This document shows, in pieces, positions 3,459 to 61,810 of a stretch of 64,000 bases of DNA. The first letter of the stretch is position 1; every line of letters starts with the position of its first letter. The notes beneath the pieces were generated by a model. It searched no databases and was not told where the DNA came from. It saw nothing but the letters and a program-made list of their open reading frames with translations. The position numbers and the translations under genes are program-made. This DNA comes from Chloroflexota bacterium (GTDB taxonomy: Bacteria > Chloroflexota > Dehalococcoidia > Bin125). The stretch covers positions 84,127 through 148,126 of the forward strand of contig VXQZ01000037.1 in the NCBI GenBank assembly GCA_009838735.1. Reading direction: 5' to 3'.

Positions 3459-3815
3459 GGGGACGAAAGGGTTCGACAGCGGTTGACTTCGAGCTGCTGC
3501 GTGTCGAGCTGGCGTTGCTCGCTAAACCACGCCACCACTCCCTAATTGGCGAAACCAGGGAACTCGCCCTCGCCGCCTAACCGCGGTGACGTCGCCTCTC
3601 AACCGCTGCCGAGTCGGAGAGAGCGCGGCGACGACTAACTCGGATGCCCGTCACGGGAAGTTGGGACCGCGGCGGAAAGACATTCCCACTTACCTGTTCG
3701 TAACGGTCGGCCGACGCGCCGGCGGACAGGGACAACACAAGCAACGGCTACGCACGTAGAAGCAGCTCGCGGAGACCGTCTGGACGGGGAGTTCGATTCT
3801 CCCCCGTCTCCACCA
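3459..3815 (+). ncRNA. ssrA: Transfer-messenger RNA (tmRNA), one-piece
   Basis: The 5' end GGGGACG pairs with CGTCTCC immediately before the encoded ACCA at the 3' end, forming the tRNA-like acceptor stem. A T-arm (GGGGAGTTCGATTCTCCCC) lies at 3786-3804. The internal reading frame GGC GAA ACC ... GCC TAA (3548-3580) encodes a tag ending GETRELALAA, whose hydrophobic Ala-rich end is the usual protease signal. Whether the resume codon is this GGC or a little upstream cannot be fixed by eye. About 357 nt is a normal length for a one-piece tmRNA. It acts with SmpB, encoded just upstream, to rescue stalled ribosomes and tag truncated proteins. Confidence 0.95.
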
Positions 3816-52768: not shown

Positions 52769-54133
52769 CTATGCCGTCTTGAAGCCCGACCCGTACATCA
52801 AGCTTCCATAGTGATTGAACCAGCCTCGCGCTTCGGGGTCATCGAAGGGATACTCGGCTCCGAGTTGCCGGGCGGCTGCCAGACCAGTGACGAAACAGGT
52901 CTCCTGGCTGTTGATCAGGGTGTGCGCGCCGCAGTGCCAGGTGCGTCGGTTGCCCTGAATGAAGCGGAACAGATTGACCAGCAGCAGCACGTGTTTCACG
53001 TCGTGCACGACGTGTTGGAACCATCGCCTGGCGACAATCTTGTCCTGGTCAATGGGCGTGATTGGGTTGTAGGTCACCAGGCACGGCCTGTCGGACTGGT
53101 GTGCCCACGGCTGCTGATTGTGCATGATGTACGTGATCTCATAGTTGTCCGGCCGCGCTCCGTACTGCTCGATGTGGTTGCTTCGCGTGGTCAGCGGCTT
53201 GACCTCGTTGTCGGGCAGCACCGACGCATCGGAGTGCACGATCGCGTGATTGTGCAGCTCACTCTCGTAGCGGATCGACGAGAGGACGTATCGCTCGAGC
53301 CAATTCGGCCGGTCAAGCATCATCAGCGTCTGGTTGGCATTGCAGGCGAAGATCACGTCGTCGAAGGTCTCCTGGATACCGTCCTCGTCTTCAAGGACTA
53401 CGCCAGCCGATCTTCGATAGACCTTCCGCACGGGGCGACCCAGGTAAATCCTGTCCCGGAAGTCGAGCGAGAGATGTTCATAGATCCGGCGGGTGCCCTG
53501 GTCCCAGGTTCGCATCGGCGTCGCCGATTCGATGTCGAAGAACTCGAGATACCGGGAGAAGAGGGCCGCGGGCATATCGAACACATTGGTCGCCATCAGG
53601 AAGTTGACGAACATTGGCTTGAGCACCTTGTAGCGGAAGTCGCCCGAGAACCCACCGGCGTTCAAGACGGTCCCCATGCTGACGTAGTTGAAGGGGTTGA
53701 GCGCGTTGAGCAGCTTCGAACGGGATCTGGTGAGCCATCCGAAGCGGTGCATCAGCGCCAGCAGTCGCTGGAACCGGGCAATCTCTTCGCTCAGTTCCTC
53801 CCGGATCTCCGAGTCGAAGTCATGCGCGTACACCTGACCTCGGTACTTGACGCTGTAGCTGAAACGCGTCTCGAGCAACTCGATCCCGAACTGTTGCATC
53901 AGCAGCACGATGTGGTGGTAGACCGAGGGAATGCAGGCTGTCACGGAGATGTCGAACGGAATCGATCTGCCGTCCGCCTGCGGCATATCGGCCGTCACAG
54001 CATTGCCGCCCAGCTGCTCATTGGCCTCAAAGAGCCGCACGTCAAAACGGTCCGGGTCCCGGTTGAGCGCCCAGGCGGCGCCCAGGCCGGAGATCCCGCC
54101 GCCGATCACGGCCACTCGGCGAGGAGATGTCAC
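52769..54133 (-). CDS. FAD-dependent amine-oxidase-like oxidoreductase (COG2907 type)
   Basis: This 454-residue flavoprotein opens with the dinucleotide motif RVAVIGGGISGLGAAWALNR (GxGxxG at about residues 11-16) and FEANEQLGGNA, the FAD ribose and NAD-loop segment of the amine oxidase/desaturase superfamily. FDDVIFACNANQTLMML and the C-terminal INSQETCFVTGLAAARQLG complete the FAD fold. The closest type known to me is the predicted NAD/FAD oxidoreductase found with cyclopropane fatty acid genes, so lipid oxidation or desaturation is plausible. It starts at ATG overlapping the upstream Rieske oxygenase stop (4 nt), an operon with tight coupling. Confidence 0.85.
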   Translation of the reverse strand: MTSPRRVAVIGGGISGLGAAWALNRDPDRFDVRLFEANEQLGGNAVTADMPQADGRSIPFDISVTACIPSVYHHIVLLMQQFGIELLETRFSYSVKYRGQVYAHDFDSEIREELSEEIARFQRLLALMHRFGWLTRSRSKLLNALNPFNYVSMGTVLNAGGFSGDFRYKVLKPMFVNFLMATNVFDMPAALFSRYLEFFDIESATPMRTWDQGTRRIYEHLSLDFRDRIYLGRPVRKVYRRSAGVVLEDEDGIQETFDDVIFACNANQTLMMLDRPNWLERYVLSSIRYESELHNHAIVHSDASVLPDNEVKPLTTRSNHIEQYGARPDNYEITYIMHNQQPWAHQSDRPCLVTYNPITPIDQDKIVARRWFQHVVHDVKHVLLLVNLFRFIQGNRRTWHCGAHTLINSQETCFVTGLAAARQLGAEYPFDDPEARGWFNHYGSLMYGSGFKTA

Positions 54134-55215
54134 TGTCGGGCCAGCTCGGCGCTGCGAGCCGGTTCACATGTTGCCGGCGGCGCCTCATCCTGCAGCGGAT
54201 AAAACTGCGCGCAGTATGCGCGGTAAGTCATGATTTCGCCGTCCGAGCGGCAAAGTCGCGGCCGGCGGACATACCGCTTCCGGCTCCAGATCGTCACATC
54301 CTGCTGTACGTCATTGCGCTGTAGGGCGATCGCGAGCTTGTTGACCAATGGAGCACGCCACCTAACTGGGAGCAAAGCGAAACCGAGGGCGTTTCGGTTT
54401 GGGCTGCGGATTTCCTTGACCTGATTGACGATCGAGAGGTTGATCATCTCGCCGTCGATCGGCGTCGCCAAAATCCAGAGCCGCATGTCCGTGCCGACGT
54501 TGTGCTCGCGAAACTCGACAAAGGAGTAGCCGAGTCCATGGATTCGGGCGCACGCGCTGACGCTCACGTCAACATTGAAGAGATGAGCGATCCTCCGCCG
54601 GCTCTTGAAGTCGAAGCGGCTTTCCAGATACGGGCCATCGACCCGGACCGGATAGTCGCCGTTTACCTGGTCGTAGCCGTGGACGTACTGAAGATGGGCG
54701 AGGTCGACCGAGTTCTCTGTGGTTTCCTGAGGATGGCCGGGGAATCGCAGCGTTCTGATTTCAATGTTGCTCCAGCCAGTTTGATCCGGTTCCTTCTCCG
54801 GCAACTGCCATTGCGGATCTCGCCCGCCGATCCCCCACCAGGCGAAGACCATGCCGCAAATCTCTCTGGTCGCGAACGTCTGTAGCCTGGCCGAACGAGG
54901 CGCCGGCGCATACGGCGTGGCAACGCACTGGCCGTCCGCGTTGAACTCGAACCCGTGGAACGGGCAGACCAACCGGCCGTCGCAGACACGGCCTCCGGCG
55001 TCAGGCCCGAGGTACGAGCCCAGATGCGGACAGTAGGCCTCGGACACGCAGATTCGTCCCTCGTCGTCGTGCCAGACGACGATCTCTTCGCCCATCCACG
55101 TCATCTGGGTGATGTCCGATTTCTTCAACTGCCGACTGGTACCCACGAAGTACCAGCCTTCGGGAAACGGAGCCGGCGGACCATGCTCGGCCGCGTTCGG
55201 CTGAGGAGCGGACAT
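54130..55215 (-). CDS. Rieske non-heme iron oxygenase, sterol-oxidising (KshA/DAF-36-like) type
   Basis: This 361-residue oxygenase has the Rieske [2Fe-2S] ligands in YCPHLGSYLG and CPFHGFEF (about residues 62-93, C-x-H ... C-x2-H) and the mononuclear iron site in ENSVDLAHLQYVHGYDQVNG (His-x4-His and an Asp). The IxxLG segment and PFHGFEF sequence context recall oxygenases such as KshA or the DAF-36/Neverland sterol 7-desaturases. A sterol-, hopanoid- or other lipid-ring substrate is therefore a reasonable inference. ATG 55215 follows GAGGGAAG. It heads a two-gene operon with the FAD oxidoreductase and is divergent from the P450 fusion gene. A separate ferredoxin and reductase must come from elsewhere. 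Confidence 0.88.
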   Translation of the reverse strand: MSAPQPNAAEHGPPAPFPEGWYFVGTSRQLKKSDITQMTWMGEEIVVWHDDEGRICVSEAYCPHLGSYLGPDAGGRVCDGRLVCPFHGFEFNADGQCVATPYAPAPRSARLQTFATREICGMVFAWWGIGGRDPQWQLPEKEPDQTGWSNIEIRTLRFPGHPQETTENSVDLAHLQYVHGYDQVNGDYPVRVDGPYLESRFDFKSRRRIAHLFNVDVSVSACARIHGLGYSFVEFREHNVGTDMRLWILATPIDGEMINLSIVNQVKEIRSPNRNALGFALLPVRWRAPLVNKLAIALQRNDVQQDVTIWSRKRYVRRPRLCRSDGEIMTYRAYCAQFYPLQDEAPPATCEPARSAELARQ

Positions 55216-55300
55216 CTCAGACTTCCCTCGTCTCACGGCCCGGGGCGACCGCCATCTCCGCCGTGCAGGCCCTGTGTAAGAAACGTTAACGGCTCACCAA

Positions 55301-55450: not shown

Positions 55451-57529
55451 ATGACGCTGAGGACTGCTGACGCACCAGCGCAACAGATGACCTTGCCCCA
55501 GGAACTGGTCTTGATGCTGCTCAATGAGGAGAGCGGCTACTTCCGCCAGGTGCGCGGCTGGAACCTGAACTGCGCCATGGTTGGCGCCGGGCTGGCCGAA
55601 CTCTCCCTGATGGGCAACATCGACACCGATATGAACTCGCTGCAGCTGCTTGACTCGACGCCAACGGGCCATGCGGCTCTTGACCCGATTCTCGAGGCAA
55701 TCGCTGAAGATCCGGCACAACACGACGCGCAGTACTGGGTAGAGGTCCTCGCTCCTCGGGCCGACACCTTCATCGACGTTGCCCTCGATCGCCTCGCTGA
55801 AATGGACATTCTCCAGCATCACGAGGGGGAGTTCTGGACACTGAATCACTCGGCGTGGCAATCCGACCAGTTTGGCGACACCGGGGCAATCACCGCTGCC
55901 GGATTCGTCAGATCGCGCATCGCACGCGTCATATTCGAGGATGAGATTCCCGACCCACGGGACGCGATCCTGATATCGCTCCTCAACACCTGCGATGTGC
56001 TGCGCTTCATCTTCGAACTCGAACCACAGGCTGACGAACGTGTCCAGTTCGTCTCCAACCTGGATCTGCTGGGCCGCTCAATCTCCGATGCCGTTTCCCT
56101 GAATCTGACGAGCCCGCTGGTTCGTCAATCGGCATTGACGAGGACGATTCCGAAAGTCAACCTGCTCAAGCTGCTGTTCAATCCACATGTCCGAACAGGC
56201 AATATTCCTGCGCTGTTCGCCAGTCTGGCCGAGCAGTATGGTCCAGTGTTTCAGTTGGCCCCGCCCTTCCAGCAGCCGACTATCTTCCTGACCGGGCTCG
56301 AGGCTAACCGTTGGGCCCAGCGGGAAGGCAGGCGATTCCTGACGTCGACGAAGTACCTCAACGAGCTTGAGGAGGAGTACGGCGCCCACGGGATCATCCC
56401 GTCACTGGACAGTTCCGATCACTTCCGGATGCGAAAGGCGATGCAGCCCGGCTTGTCTCGGGCGCGACTCGAGAGCCAACTGGGCGAACTCTATCGTCTC
56501 ATGCGGACGCACCTCGCCGAATGGAACGTCGGTGACGCGATGCCCGCGAGGTCCATGTCGCGGCTGATGACTAACGCTCAGATCTCCCCCATTCTTGCCA
56601 GCGTTGATTCACAGGACATCATCGAAGACTTGATCGCCTATAAGGAGCGCGCGCTCAACACGCGCGTTGCCAAGGTGATGCCCAAGTTCTTGCTGCGCAC
56701 GCCGGCCATCAGGCAACGAGCCAAGAGCATTGAAGCGATGCTTGAGCGCGTTCAGCGCGCTCATACTCCAGCCCTGCGGGTCGATACCCCGCGCGATATC
56801 GTCGACGATTTGCTCAGTCTGCACGCAAATGATCCGCAGCTGTTGCCTGAGTCGAGTCTCAAGTTCGCCCTTTCCGCCCCGCTGCTGGCCAGCATGTACC
56901 TGGGCGACACCATCGGGTTTGCGCTCTACGCGCTGGCGTCGCAGCCGGAGCTGTACCAGAGAATCCAGGCCGAGGCCGACGCGATCTTTGCTGACGGCGA
57001 TCCGGACCCTGAGGTATTTCAGGGTCCCGAAATCGATGTCACTCGCCGCTTTGTCCTTGAGTGTCTGCGAATGTACCCGGTCGTTCCCGGTTCACTGCGC
57101 AACGTGATGAACAGCTGCGTCGTCGAAAACTATGAGCTGCCGTTGAGCGCTCGTGTGCTCGTCGTGCAGACCGCCGCGCACTACATGAACGATGTGTTCC
57201 CCGAGCCGCACAAATTCGATATTGATCGATACTTGCCTGGCCGTGAGGAGCATCGCTCGATTGGATACGCACCTTTCGGACTGGGCACGCACACATGCCT
57301 GGGCAACCGTTGGGTGGAACTGCAAATGGCAGTCGACCTGATGATGATCGCGCATTATTTCGACTTGGAAGTCCAGCCGGCCAATGCCAAGCTGCGGATC
57401 AGCCCGTTCCCGTCCTTGTCGATCAGCAACAAGGTGAAGTTCCACATCTCCCGCAAACGCCGCGAGATTCCCCCACCGGGCGAGTCGAATGGCTCAGCAG
57501 CCGCTATGGGTTGCCCCGTTCTTCACTGA
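55451..57529 (+). CDS. GPP34-domain/cytochrome P450 fusion protein
   Basis: Residues about 12-225 match the GPP34 (GOLPH3/Vps74-like) fold: LPQELVLMLLNEESGYF, GAGLAELSLMGNI, DSTPTGHAALDPILEAI, YWVEVLAP and PDPRDAILISLLNTCDVLRF. In eukaryotes this fold binds phosphoinositide-bearing membranes. Residues about 230-675 form a cytochrome P450: the I-helix LGDTIGFALYALASQP (Asp486-Thr487), ExxR as ECLR (Glu537-Arg540), an FDIDRYLPGREE-type segment and heme loop FGLGTHTCLGNRW with Cys616. Bacterial P450s are about 400-450 residues; the 692-residue chain carries a full extra domain. The reading frame is continuous and the start ATG 55451 has AAAGGG upstream. It is divergent from the Rieske gene and convergent with the RND gene. 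Confidence 0.88.
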   Translation: MTLRTADAPAQQMTLPQELVLMLLNEESGYFRQVRGWNLNCAMVGAGLAELSLMGNIDTDMNSLQLLDSTPTGHAALDPILEAIAEDPAQHDAQYWVEVLAPRADTFIDVALDRLAEMDILQHHEGEFWTLNHSAWQSDQFGDTGAITAAGFVRSRIARVIFEDEIPDPRDAILISLLNTCDVLRFIFELEPQADERVQFVSNLDLLGRSISDAVSLNLTSPLVRQSALTRTIPKVNLLKLLFNPHVRTGNIPALFASLAEQYGPVFQLAPPFQQPTIFLTGLEANRWAQREGRRFLTSTKYLNELEEEYGAHGIIPSLDSSDHFRMRKAMQPGLSRARLESQLGELYRLMRTHLAEWNVGDAMPARSMSRLMTNAQISPILASVDSQDIIEDLIAYKERALNTRVAKVMPKFLLRTPAIRQRAKSIEAMLERVQRAHTPALRVDTPRDIVDDLLSLHANDPQLLPESSLKFALSAPLLASMYLGDTIGFALYALASQPELYQRIQAEADAIFADGDPDPEVFQGPEIDVTRRFVLECLRMYPVVPGSLRNVMNSCVVENYELPLSARVLVVQTAAHYMNDVFPEPHKFDIDRYLPGREEHRSIGYAPFGLGTHTCLGNRWVELQMAVDLMMIAHYFDLEVQPANAKLRISPFPSLSISNKVKFHISRKRREIPPPGESNGSAAAMGCPVLH

Positions 57530-57540
57530 CTGTCTGCGGC

Positions 57541-60024
57541 TCAGGACGGGGTCGATTCCTGCTCGTGGCGCTCTTGCGTCTCGTCGATCGCTTCGTCCAG
57601 GTCATCCCACATTCGCTGCATCGCCGAGCGCAACCGCATGTTCTGGAAGGCGCCCCAGACGGTCATCGTTGGCGGTACGACGAGGATTGAGACGATCAAC
57701 GAGTAGGCAATCGTGATCGCTGCGGTGATACCGAACTGCTGCGACGCCAAAAGCGGCGAGGCGATGAGCACTCCAAGACCGAGCGCCGTCGTCAGCGCAG
57801 ACCCAAGGAGCGCCGAGCCGGTCGTGGCCAGGGTGCGAATCGCCGCCTGCTCCGGATCGCGTAGGCGTGTGAATTCTTCCCGATAACGATGGATCAGATG
57901 GATGGTGTAGTCGACGCCGATGCCAATCGAGAGCGCGGTGATGATCGACGTGACCAGCGAGTATGGGATGCCAAGCAGCGCCATCGTACCCAGGACCCAG
58001 ATCAGGACAAAGACGATCGGCACCACTGCGATCACGGCCAACACGGGCTGACGATGGGTCACCCAGAAAAAGATCGCAAGAATGGCAAGCGCCGCAGCAA
58101 TGGTGATGCTGATCGCCTCCGTCTGGCGATCCGTGATCGAATCGGTGATTGTCACCCCGATGATGCCCTCGGATGTCGCGGTGATCGCATCGTCCGTACC
58201 GACCCAGAGCGCTTCCAACTCCGGCTGCACCTGCCTCGCGCCGATCGAATCTCCCGACATGGTTGGGAATTGCACCAGGATCGTATCGAGTCCGTTCGGA
58301 TTGTTGACGAGCGCATGCGAGAGCGCCGGTTCCAGAGTTTCCAGCCGGTTGAGAATCTGCTGCATCAACGCCGGATCAAGCTCCAGGCCGGCAGATGCTT
58401 CGCGGAACGTTGCCGCCAGTTCCGGGTCGTAGTTGTCGGAGGGCTCTCCGCTGTCCGTGATCCAGTCGCGAACGATTAGCTCGTATGACGTCTGAAGTGG
58501 TCCAGCGGCAAACCCCGGCCGGCTGCTGTCGTCCTCAAACACTGCAGCCAGATCGCGCAGATTGAGCAGGGTTCTGGTTTCCGTGGCCTCGGCCTTGATC
58601 AATACGGAGGTCACCTCGGCCGGTCCTCCGATCGCGGCGTCGAGCGTGTCCCAATCTTCGAGCACCGTTCCTCCGCGCGGGAGGATGTCGCGAATGCTGA
58701 ACTCCGACTCAAGATCGGTCGCCGCTACACCGAAGCCAATGGTCACTGCCAGGACCACCAACAGGAAGGGGGCGGGCCTGAGCGCTACGTTGGCGCCCAA
58801 CAGCTCGGCAGCTCGCGCCACGCCCGGGATCGCCTGTGCGATGAGACGTTGCGGAGGCAGCGTGCCCTTGGCTTCCCGCCGGCCGTCGATGATCGCGCGG
58901 CCCGCCGGTACCAGCGTGAGCATCACGAACAAGCTCATGCCGACGCCAAAGGCAGCGACGACGCCAAAGTCGCCCACGATCTCGACCGGGGAGAAGAGGT
59001 TGGCCAATAGGCTGACCATCGTCGTGACCGCGGCAAGCATCAGTGGGATCACCACATGCCGCATTCCCGAACGCACCGCTTCGATCACCGGCACGCCGGT
59101 GGCTCGCTGTTCCCGGTAGTTCGACACGACCTGAATGGCATAGTCGACCGTGAGGCCGATGATGATGATCGGCACGAGCGCCGTGAGGGCGTTCGGTGGA
59201 CCGATCACTCCAAGCGCGCCGGGGCCCAGCCAACCTTCCAGGCCGACCACCCAGATAATCGACAACAGCAGCCCCACCAACGCGAGCACCAGGTCGGACA
59301 GCGTTCGCAGGAACAGCAGAATCAACACGGCAATCAGCAGCAGCGCCACGCCAATCAGCGGCGCCATGCCGTCCTCGGTCGCTTGTTTGTACTCATCCTC
59401 GACGACGATCGGCGACACGCTGCTGACTTGAAGCGGCCCTTCGTCGCTCGTGGCCATCTCGGCGATCCGGCGCTCGGCGTCGGCCACCCGTTCGTCCTGG
59501 GTGTTGCGTAATCGGACGGTCGCGATTGCGACGGCTGTTCCGTCGACGTCCGTCCCCGTGAGCGCGCCCATGACTGGCGCGATTTCCGGAGCCGCGCTGA
59601 CGGCATCGATTTCCGCCTGCGATACCGCATCGAGGTTCTCAGCGCCCAGCGCAGCCTGAATCAAGTGAGCCGGCGAGAAGATCGCATCCGTGGGCGTCAG
59701 CAACATCGCGATATCGGGCTCGGCGGCGATGCCACCAAGCAGCCCACTCATCTGCGACAGCCCCTCGGGCGTCAGCGCTGCTCCTCTGAACACGAGCGTG
59801 ACCAGTCGCACATCACCGGAGGCCTCGAAATGGTCGTTGATCTCTCCGATTGCCTCAACGATCGGGCCATCCTGGGGCAGCAGCGCCAGGTCCGTGCCGT
59901 CTACAATCGGCACCCGCCGATCCGCGCCGGCGGCGAGAATCACTGTGACGATCAGCAACACCCCGATGGTGACCCAGGGGCGGGCTGTGACCAGGCGGCT
60001 CAGTTTGCCGAGAATGTCACTCAT
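57541..60024 (-). CDS. RND/MMPL-family exporter (HpnN-like)
   Basis: This 827-residue inner-membrane protein shows the two-fold RND layout. Helix 1 lies near residues 16-36, a large external loop runs to about residue 205, five helices follow (LIGVALLLIAVLILLFLRTL, VPIIIIGLTVDYAIQVVSNY), then a second half with helix 7 (LLVVLAVTIGFGVAATDLES), a loop (about 430-630) and a last helix block (ITIAAALAILAIFFWVTHR, SIGIGVDYTIHLIHRYREEF). The GxxxDY signatures in both halves carry the proton-relay Asp typical of MMPL and hopanoid (HpnN) transporters. Such proteins move lipids out of the membrane. ATG 60024 is used. The C-terminus ends convergently with the P450 fusion gene. Confidence 0.9.
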   Translation of the reverse strand: MSDILGKLSRLVTARPWVTIGVLLIVTVILAAGADRRVPIVDGTDLALLPQDGPIVEAIGEINDHFEASGDVRLVTLVFRGAALTPEGLSQMSGLLGGIAAEPDIAMLLTPTDAIFSPAHLIQAALGAENLDAVSQAEIDAVSAAPEIAPVMGALTGTDVDGTAVAIATVRLRNTQDERVADAERRIAEMATSDEGPLQVSSVSPIVVEDEYKQATEDGMAPLIGVALLLIAVLILLFLRTLSDLVLALVGLLLSIIWVVGLEGWLGPGALGVIGPPNALTALVPIIIIGLTVDYAIQVVSNYREQRATGVPVIEAVRSGMRHVVIPLMLAAVTTMVSLLANLFSPVEIVGDFGVVAAFGVGMSLFVMLTLVPAGRAIIDGRREAKGTLPPQRLIAQAIPGVARAAELLGANVALRPAPFLLVVLAVTIGFGVAATDLESEFSIRDILPRGGTVLEDWDTLDAAIGGPAEVTSVLIKAEATETRTLLNLRDLAAVFEDDSSRPGFAAGPLQTSYELIVRDWITDSGEPSDNYDPELAATFREASAGLELDPALMQQILNRLETLEPALSHALVNNPNGLDTILVQFPTMSGDSIGARQVQPELEALWVGTDDAITATSEGIIGVTITDSITDRQTEAISITIAAALAILAIFFWVTHRQPVLAVIAVVPIVFVLIWVLGTMALLGIPYSLVTSIITALSIGIGVDYTIHLIHRYREEFTRLRDPEQAAIRTLATTGSALLGSALTTALGLGVLIASPLLASQQFGITAAITIAYSLIVSILVVPPTMTVWGAFQNMRLRSAMQRMWDDLDEAIDETQERHEQESTPS

Positions 60025-60076
60025 GCTGAGCAACAGGATAAGAGGGTCGCATCGAGTCGCAACCAGTTCCTGTGGA

Positions 60077-61702
60077 TCAGGACAGGCTGAAGCCCTGGTA
60101 GCCGTTCTCGGCGACTTCCGCTAGCCGCTCTCGGTATCGCGGTGCGCCGCCGGGGTAGATCATGTAGCGCTGATGATCCTGCTTGCCGTGGCCGTCAACG
60201 TTTGAGTTGTAGCCGGTAAACCAGCTCTTGATCTTGCTCATCAGCTGGAATTGGTACATCTCCTGCACGTGTTGCCGCCATTCCTGCTCGGCGCCGTCCT
60301 GAGCCTCGACTCGTCGATATCCGTGGTCGCGCATGTAGCTGAGCAAGTCGGAGATCCAGTCCACCGAGGTCTCGATGCCGCGTGGATAGTTGGTTGAGAC
60401 GGATCCGCCCTGTGGGCCGCTGAGCATCAACAGATTGGGGAATCCGGACGTCTGCATGCCGAGCAGCGTGTCCGGACTCTGTGCCCATTTGTCCCGTAGC
60501 GGTAGCCCGCCCGATCCGGTGAAGTTGATTCGATCGAACGCGCCGGTGATCGCGTCGAATCCCGTTGCATAGATGATCAGGTCAAACTCGAACTCCCGGT
60601 ACGACGTTCGGATGCCCGTTGGCGTGATGCGCTCGATCGGCGTCTCATTGATGTCGATCAGACGCACGTTGTCTCGGTTGTAGGCCTCGTAGTACTTCGT
60701 TTCGAGCGGCACCCGACGAGTGCCAAACCCATGGTCCTTGGGGATCAGCCTCTCCGCCGTGATTGGGTCGTGTACTCGTGCCCGGATTTTGTCCGCGATG
60801 AACTCCGAGTAGCCGGCGTTGGCCTCAGGGTCGATCCCGACATCGATGAAGTTGCTCATCCACTTGCTGAAGCCGGGAGTCTCGTAGAGCTGCTGCCAGA
60901 GCGCCAGCCGCTCTTCCTCGGGCACGTCGCGGTACTTGCGCTGGTCTGGGGCATGGATGAAGCCGCCGGGCGTCCGCCGGCAGAGTTCGAAGATCTCGTC
61001 GTAGGTCGCGTGAATTTCTGACTGCGTTGCATCGTCGATGCGGCCGTTGTGCAGCGGCGCGCACCAGTTGGGGCGGCGCTGGAAGACAGTCAGTTCGCCC
61101 ACCTTGTCGGCGATCTCCGCGATCACCTGGACGCCGGTTGCGCCGGTGCCAATCACCGCGACCCGCTTACCGGCCAGATCAACTTGCTCATGCGGCCAGT
61201 AGTAGGTGTGCCAGGCGTCTCCCTCGAAGCTGTCGACGCCTTCGATCCGCGGCAAGGTCGCCGCCGAGAGCATGCCGATCGCAGTCAACAGGAAGCGGCA
61301 GGTCAGCTCCCGTCCGTCCTCCAGGCTGACCGTCCAGAGATCAGTCTCATCGTCAAACGACGCGCCGTTGACCCTGCAGCCAAACTGCATGTGCTTGCGC
61401 AGGTCGAACTTGTCGACGACGTGATTGAGATAGCGCAACGTCTCCGGTTGTCCGGCGAAGTGCTCGCTCCAGTCCCATTCATCGAGCAGTTCCTGTGAGA
61501 ACGAGTAACCGTAGGTGTAGCTCTCCGAGTCGAAACGCGCGCCGGGATAGCGATTCCAGTACCAGGTGCCGCCGGGGCCGTCGGCAGTCTCGAGGACCGT
61601 CGCGTCGATGCCCAGCTCCTGCAGCTTGTACATCTGATAGATGCCCGCGACTCCGGCGCCAATGATGATCGCTTCGTGCTGGGGTTGAACCTGCTCGGTC
61701 AT
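60077..61702 (-). CDS. Baeyer-Villiger monooxygenase
   Basis: This 541-residue flavin enzyme inserts oxygen next to a ketone to form an ester or lactone. Both Rossmann motifs are present, GAGVAG (residues 15-20, FAD) and GTGATG (185-190, NADPH), and the family fingerprint FEGDAWHTYYWP (159-170; consensus FxGxxxHxxxWP) lies between them. The catalytic Arg lies in PKDHGFGTRR (about residues 321-330), followed by KYYEAYNRDNVRLID and an ATGF segment. It is close to class I cyclic-ketone and steroid/terpenoid monooxygenases. Start ATG 61702 follows GAAGGAG. The alpha/beta hydrolase is divergent, and the RND exporter lies beyond its 3' end on the same strand. Confidence 0.95.
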   Translation of the reverse strand: MTEQVQPQHEAIIIGAGVAGIYQMYKLQELGIDATVLETADGPGGTWYWNRYPGARFDSESYTYGYSFSQELLDEWDWSEHFAGQPETLRYLNHVVDKFDLRKHMQFGCRVNGASFDDETDLWTVSLEDGRELTCRFLLTAIGMLSAATLPRIEGVDSFEGDAWHTYYWPHEQVDLAGKRVAVIGTGATGVQVIAEIADKVGELTVFQRRPNWCAPLHNGRIDDATQSEIHATYDEIFELCRRTPGGFIHAPDQRKYRDVPEEERLALWQQLYETPGFSKWMSNFIDVGIDPEANAGYSEFIADKIRARVHDPITAERLIPKDHGFGTRRVPLETKYYEAYNRDNVRLIDINETPIERITPTGIRTSYREFEFDLIIYATGFDAITGAFDRINFTGSGGLPLRDKWAQSPDTLLGMQTSGFPNLLMLSGPQGGSVSTNYPRGIETSVDWISDLLSYMRDHGYRRVEAQDGAEQEWRQHVQEMYQFQLMSKIKSWFTGYNSNVDGHGKQDHQRYMIYPGGAPRYRERLAEVAENGYQGFSLS

Positions 61703-61810
61703 CGCTCGCTCCTTCACTTCGCTATGTCGAGGCTAAACGGAGCCGAATCCGTCGGCAACGGATGGGACTCAGCCACCGGCTATGTTGGCGATCGGAACCG
61801 GCTCGGTTAG

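Follow-up and report, generated by a model that had tools for sequence, protein, structure and literature searches.

Clusters of steroid genes (CSGs) carrying ERG24, CYP51 and LSS have been described in Ircinia symbionts of ten phyla, together with their horizontal transfer (PMC9531527). Sterol C24-methyltransferases (SMTs) of sponge symbionts make the 24-isopropyl side chain in vitro, and lie in clusters with sdmA/sdmB (PMC10070321). In text searches, neither paper mentions GPP34 or describes a P450 besides CYP51, and PMC10070321 yields no mention of P450, Rieske or transporter. It is an open question whether sponges or their bacteria are the makers of the sterols behind the 24-isopropylcholestane fossil signal.

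The GPP34 family (PF05719) includes GOLPH3, whose fold is known from the Golgi of animals and yeast. In GOLPH3, residues W81, R90, R171 and R174 form the pocket for PI4P (PMC4414131, PMC12494035), and a hydrophobic hairpin inserts into the membrane (PMC12494035). The only study of a bacterial GPP34 protein that was found concerns wall-deficient cells of Streptomyces (PMC12402492). A search of the literature, supplementary files and subscription papers apart, gave no relevant result for GPP34-P450 proteins or for GPP34 in sponge symbionts, and we found no earlier description in it of the fusion reported below.

The Fusion Gene and Its Two Domains

The window analysed here, a 64,000 nt stretch of Chloroflexota contig VXQZ01000037.1, carries a GPP34-P450 fusion gene (type I) at 55451–57529 on the forward strand, in a single frame of 692 aa with an ATG start. 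Residues 15–215 (55493–56095, + strand) match the GPP34 profile PF05719 with 103.5 bits against a cut-off of 29.1 (E = 2e-29), and residues 246–657 (56186–57421, + strand) match the P450 profile PF00067 with 132.8 bits against a cut-off of 22.8 (E = 2e-38). The protein also has the ExxR motif and the FxxGxxxCxG heme loop of the P450 superfamily, while all its scores with the NCBIfam P450 models were far under the cut-offs. An AlphaFold2 model built from a 48-sequence alignment shows two folded domains (mean pLDDT 80, pTM 0.69), separated by a low-confidence linker at about residues 221–228. In Foldseek searches, the top match of the full-length model was the CYP51 domain of the Methylococcus CYP51-ferredoxin fusion (6mcw), and the only significant PDB matches of the isolated N-terminal model were GOLPH3 and Vps74 (E = 6.5e-9).

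The initial annotation had read this frame as one protein with both domains and had asked for a homologue search covering both, and for a structure model; it would have been withdrawn if residues 1–225 were not GPP34 or if the frame were a chimera. All of the 48 aligned homologues match both Pfam families, and the profile and fold matches place a GOLPH3/Vps74-like domain at the N-terminus. Full-length, open frames with the same start recur in 31 of the 294 genomes of the class, at 49–90% identity. A chimera or misassembly of two genes was rejected, its probability being negligible, as the same architecture is found on hundreds of independent contigs and in several phyla.

Distribution and Hosts

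When GTDB 220 was scanned with one genome for each species, 473 stretches were returned, of which 451 encode relatives of the fusion. The best 80 were fetched for analysis of their loci, and nearly all span both domains. Phyla given in the record titles are Chloroflexota, Nitrospirota, Gemmatimonadota, Latescibacterota, Pseudomonadota, Binatota and Verrucomicrobiota, and the isolate names point to marine-sponge symbionts from at least seven phyla; the prefixes RHO, IRC, COS and APA are consistent with sponge hosts in Robbins et al. 2021 (PMC8163846). From these names the carriers are taken to be sponge symbionts, a strong case for many of the records that falls short of proof for each. On the protein tree the phyla are interleaved, with nine changes for seven groups where the minimum is six, a pattern that fits horizontal transfer but is not proof of it alone. 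Plasmids were scanned for fused relatives as well, with unfused P450s as the only result.

A second subfamily of GPP34-P450 proteins, about 30% identical to the window protein, occurs in three genomes (G481, G362 and G515). Its members have a canonical AGADT I-helix and no Trp at the position of GOLPH3 W81, and the gene immediately downstream encodes an acyltransferase-3 membrane protein, with no sterol genes alongside. Divergent copies of this kind with the AGADT motif were located at L157:10284–12287, L158:1272–3311, L159:10002–12032 and L137:1794–3772, the first three of which are followed by the acyltransferase-3 gene. By genome, the frame is broken in the G515 copy and likewise in a relative in G194; by locus, it is broken in L159 and L137. 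Since GPP34 is joined to two P450 subfamilies with different neighbours, the architecture appears to serve at least two pathways, which favours GPP34 being a general targeting module.

Stand-alone GPP34 genes are present in the same genomes, at L140:1053–1706 and, in the genome of the window itself, at G000:C4:16636–17232 (L133:9604–10251). The L140 gene lies about 16 kb from the fusion, and its product shares 46% identity with the GPP34 domain of a fusion protein. The one on contig C4 is near peptide-transporter-like and acyl-CoA-like genes, as read from the starts of their ORFs, and these give no clue to its function.

Gene Context of the Fusion

The gene order in the window is a flavin amine-oxidase-like protein (52769–54133, − strand) and a KshA-type Rieske oxygenase (54130–55236, − strand; Pfam KshA_C and Rieske), which overlap by 4 bases and are read leftward, then the divergently oriented fusion, which begins about 215 bases on and is read rightward, and then two more leftward genes. 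These encode an MMPL/HAE3-type RND transporter with a sterol-sensing-like Pfam match (57541–60033, − strand) and an FMO/Baeyer-Villiger-type flavin monooxygenase (60077–61717, − strand). The latter is found beside the MMPL gene in close relatives, and is outside the core cassette. Elsewhere in the window, a tmRNA gene with the tag peptide GETRELALAA is found at 3459–3815.

When all neighbouring ORFs of the 80 loci were clustered, the commonest neighbours were the flavin protein (51 loci), the KshA-type Rieske protein (49), an MMPL-type RND transporter (48) and an SMT (42), the last not being adjacent to the fusion in the window itself. In 59 of the 80 loci, two or more of the flavin, Rieske, SMT, and MMPL or RND partners are present, and this holds in several phyla. 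In ten loci, from Latescibacterota, Gemmatimonadota and Verrucomicrobiota, a tripartite RND pump replaces the MMPL protein. The neighbouring methyltransferase has the Sterol_MT_C domain, which is diagnostic for sterol C24-methyltransferases. Less often, and chiefly in Nitrospirota, the GPP34-P450 gene is accompanied by genes for a squalene epoxidase-oxidosqualene cyclase (SE-OSC) fusion, a CYP51-like P450, an ERG4/ERG24 reductase and an SdmA-type Rieske protein.

The flavin protein is about 80% identical across phyla, and its closest solved structure is LkcE. The neighbouring Rieske protein scores 39 bits with the model of the SdmA C4-demethylase (NF052579, cut-off 600); a closer SdmA relative is a different gene, which at 398 bits is likewise under this cut-off. 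The MMPL neighbour reaches 62 bits with the BstA sterol transporter model (NF045600, cut-off 1400). A conserved protein of about 245 aa with no Pfam match is encoded next to sterol clusters in several phyla (cluster c20; L134:13667–14410, L046:4224–4955 and L142:8057–8917), and is possibly a membrane-bound sterol isomerase or reductase.

Co-Occurrence with Sterol Genes

Among the 294 genomes of the class, 31 carry the fusion and 31 carry an SMT; both are present in 30, with one discordant genome each way (G054 and G221; Fisher P = 1e-38 across the 294 genomes, kinship ignored). This pattern covers six families, and in several of these there are also members without the fusion. A true oxidosqualene cyclase (OSC, taken as a score over 600 bits) was detected in 17 of the 294 genomes, all 17 with the fusion (Fisher P = 2e-19, again ignoring kinship). 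The other 14 fusion-bearing genomes had no detected OSC, which points either to incomplete bins or to an additional use of the cassette on imported sterols.

The genome of the window carries, on contig C36, a cluster of SE-OSC, CYP51-like, ERG24, SdmA and 3β-HSD-type genes, and has SMTs on contigs C41 and C11. In genome G287, an SE-OSC gene is directly beside the fusion and MMPL genes. Linkage to or co-occurrence with OSC, SMT, ERG24 and SdmA, the feature by which bacterial sterol gene clusters are recognised, was found for the fusion. The initial annotation had expected a hydrophobic substrate for the P450, and the sterol genes among the neighbouring and co-occurring genes agree with this. 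A second SMT in the genome of the window (L135:6363–8683), which shares 44% identity with the SMT of the cassette, is next to a distant Rieske gene of KshA type, and the two may form a second sterol operon.

The P450 Active Site

The ExxR motif (E537–R540; 57059–57070, + strand) is invariant in the homologue alignment, and the heme-ligating Cys616 (57296–57298, + strand) is a Cys in 47 of the 48 homologues, so both had been rightly assigned at the outset. The catalytic core is strongly conserved overall. The one homologue with an Arg in place of the heme cysteine (L047:10001–12076) comes from a genome, SB0664_bin_15, which holds a second copy (L050).

The I-helix carries a degenerate motif, S481-x-Y483-L-G485-D486 (56891–56908, + strand), in which S, Y, G and D are invariant in all 48 sequences. 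Its register was set by the divergent GPP34-P450 subfamily (AGADT), a Planktothrix P450 (GGMET) and the CYP51-like P450 of the window's own genome (AGQHT). In this alignment the canonical acid and alcohol positions are taken by the invariant Tyr483 and by Leu484, and one residue is deleted just after them. The deletion makes the register uncertain by one residue, and in either register Asp486-Thr487, which had been proposed as the catalytic pair, is off the pair positions; at residue 487 the 48 sequences have mainly Ala (A 34, T 6, G 5, M 2 and E 1). That assignment was mistaken. Judged by the alignment, type I fusions lack the usual oxygen-activation pair, a feature that is common in monooxygenases but not universal. 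The P450 would accordingly be expected to have a non-canonical distal pocket, with a probable effect on its reaction. The His-Thr that occupies the pair positions in CYP51, as in the AGQHT motif, is absent as well. The possibility that the fusion is itself the CYP51 was rejected on this difference in the I-helix and on the separate CYP51-like gene in the sterol cluster of the same genome.

The GPP34 Domain and the Membrane

The four pocket residues of GOLPH3 were compared across 44 fusions, with a GOLPH3 query sequence that differs from 3kn1 at one residue. The equivalent of W81 is Trp37 (55559–55561, + strand), invariant in all 44. The other three are replaced throughout: R90 by V, I or A (G in one), R171 by E or D, and R174 by I or V. 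The GOLPH3-type PI4P effector pocket is therefore absent, only W81 of the four residues being kept, and PI4P docking was rejected on these residues. The equivalent of the hydrophobic hairpin is retained at residues 121–131 (55811–55843, + strand), with a conserved F128-W129-T130-L131. The window protein has no predicted transmembrane helix, the top 19-residue score of 1.58 being below the usual threshold.

It had been suggested that the GPP34 part docks the P450 on a membrane lipid. Of this, peripheral docking is reasonable given the kept hairpin and the lack of a transmembrane helix, and binding of a phosphoinositide was dropped with the three arginines. Our reading is that the GPP34 domain probably gives generic bilayer docking, and so takes the place of the membrane anchor that eukaryotic sterol P450s have at the N-terminus.

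Proposed Function and Alternatives

We consider it probable that the fusion is a sterol-tailoring, peripheral-membrane P450 belonging to a cassette shared among sponge-associated bacteria. The P450 would be held on the membrane surface by its GOLPH3-fold domain and not by the usual N-terminal transmembrane helix, and the horizontally shared cassette would unite it with the SMT, the KshA-type Rieske protein, the flavin oxidoreductase and the RND/MMPL lipid transporter. Where a de novo pathway is present (squalene epoxidase-oxidosqualene cyclase, CYP51, ERG24 and SdmA/SdmB), the cassette would act downstream of it, and where this pathway is missing it would act on host-derived sterols. Most likely, the GPP34 domain would sit on the bilayer by its hydrophobic hairpin and a flat face, with no recognition of PI4P, and the mouth of the docked P450 would draw the sterol from the membrane. 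The P450 fold is nearest to CYP51. In sequence, the protein shares no more than about 15–20% identity with any characterised sterol P450. Because Tyr483 and Leu484 replace the acid-threonine pair and the I-helix is shortened, the reaction is probably no routine hydroxylation; our best guess is a desaturation or a C-C bond step on the sterol.

The same active-site changes could mean that type I proteins no longer activate oxygen, and serve as a redox-silent isomerase or dehydratase, or as a sterol-binding carrier. The substituted pair, the deletion and the unconserved residue 487 speak for this; the invariant ExxR, the nearly invariant heme Cys and the well-conserved core speak against it, and P450s without the Thr that still oxidise exist, CYP107A1 being an example. 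We regard loss of oxygen activation as unlikely. KshA-type Rieske enzymes are also found in steroid breakdown, and the closest solved structures to the Rieske neighbour are 3-ketosteroid 9α-hydroxylases. Together with the Baeyer-Villiger-type FMO beside the MMPL gene in the window, and the 14 fusion genomes in which no OSC was detected, this raises the alternative that the cassette degrades or detoxifies host steroids, with the Rieske, P450, flavin and BVMO proteins oxidising sponge sterols imported by the MMPL/RND pump. The near one-to-one co-occurrence with SMT, and with OSC where it is present, speaks instead for building, and the recurrent neighbours in the 80 loci showed no cholesterol catabolic genes, so breakdown is rather less probable still. 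A substrate among other triterpenoids, either a hopanoid or the product of a non-sterol cyclase, would make the sterol link indirect, and would suit the squalene-hopene cyclase of the same genome (C13), the weak HpnN match of the MMPL protein (99 bits against a 752-bit cut-off) and the unfused cousin P450 beside an SHC-like cyclase in Planktothrix. It is quite improbable, given that SHC-like cyclases are common without the fusion (TIGR03463 is matched at E ≤ 0.001 in 122 class genomes, while 31 have the fusion), while SMT and true OSC track it.

The main rival to bilayer docking is that GPP34 acts as a protein-protein adaptor and brings the P450 into contact with the transporter or with partner enzymes, not with a lipid. 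GOLPH3 itself binds protein tails (PMC12494035), the arginines of the PI4P pocket are gone, GPP34 is an obligate part of every family member, and the other proteins of the cassette show tight conservation. Against this, the hydrophobic hairpin has been kept, and the same domain is found on the second P450 subfamily in a quite different context, next to a membrane acyltransferase, which suits a general membrane module. We hold the adaptor role to be possible, and bilayer docking to be the better reading.

Taking the sterol-tailoring role further, the mobile, multi-phylum cassette might supply a tailoring step that is missing for sponge-type sterols, for example a side-chain desaturation or remodelling that feeds the C24-methyltransferase. 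It would do so by means of a P450 that has a Tyr-based distal pocket not described before, and a membrane module of GOLPH3 fold. This is offered tentatively; if true, symbionts and not the sponge would shape part of the sponge sterol biomarker record. The cassette provides named, testable enzymes that travel with SMTs across phyla, and brings in a P450 family whose oxygen-activation site is unusual. It is also the first conserved case that we found of a bacterial GPP34 domain tied to a defined metabolic pathway, so that the role of bacterial GOLPH3-like proteins becomes testable.

Comparison with Known Systems

The CYP51-ferredoxin of Methylococcus capsulatus, a sterol 14α-demethylase (PDB 6mcw/7snm), ranks first by fold and among the top matches by profile, and is likewise a bacterial sterol P450 with an extra domain. 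The two proteins share about 18–20% identity; the extra domain is a ferredoxin in Methylococcus and an N-terminal GPP34 in the window protein, whose genome has its separate CYP51-like gene. The closest unfused P450 found is that of a Planktothrix agardhii plasmid (WP_227398350), 29% identical over the P450 part, which lies beside cyclase and squalene synthase-type genes of a triterpene cluster. It differs from the window protein in having no GPP34 domain and a canonical GGMET I-helix. Plasmid p2 of P. agardhii (L144) carries an apparent triterpenoid cluster, with a cyclase, a squalene/phytoene synthase-type gene and several P450s.

GOLPH3 and Vps74 have the same fold as the N-terminal part, and their Trp81 and hydrophobic hairpin are kept in the fusion, which differs from them in the replacement of R90, R171 and R174, in the attached enzyme and in having no coatomer-binding N-terminus. 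SCO4440, the GOLPH3-like protein of Streptomyces (PMC12402492), is also a bacterial GPP34 protein. The CSGs of Ircinia symbionts and the SMT clusters of sponge symbionts share with the present loci the kind of host bacteria, the ERG24-CYP51-LSS and SMT genes and the spread across phyla; what is new here is the enzyme and its cassette, and not bacterial sterol synthesis itself.
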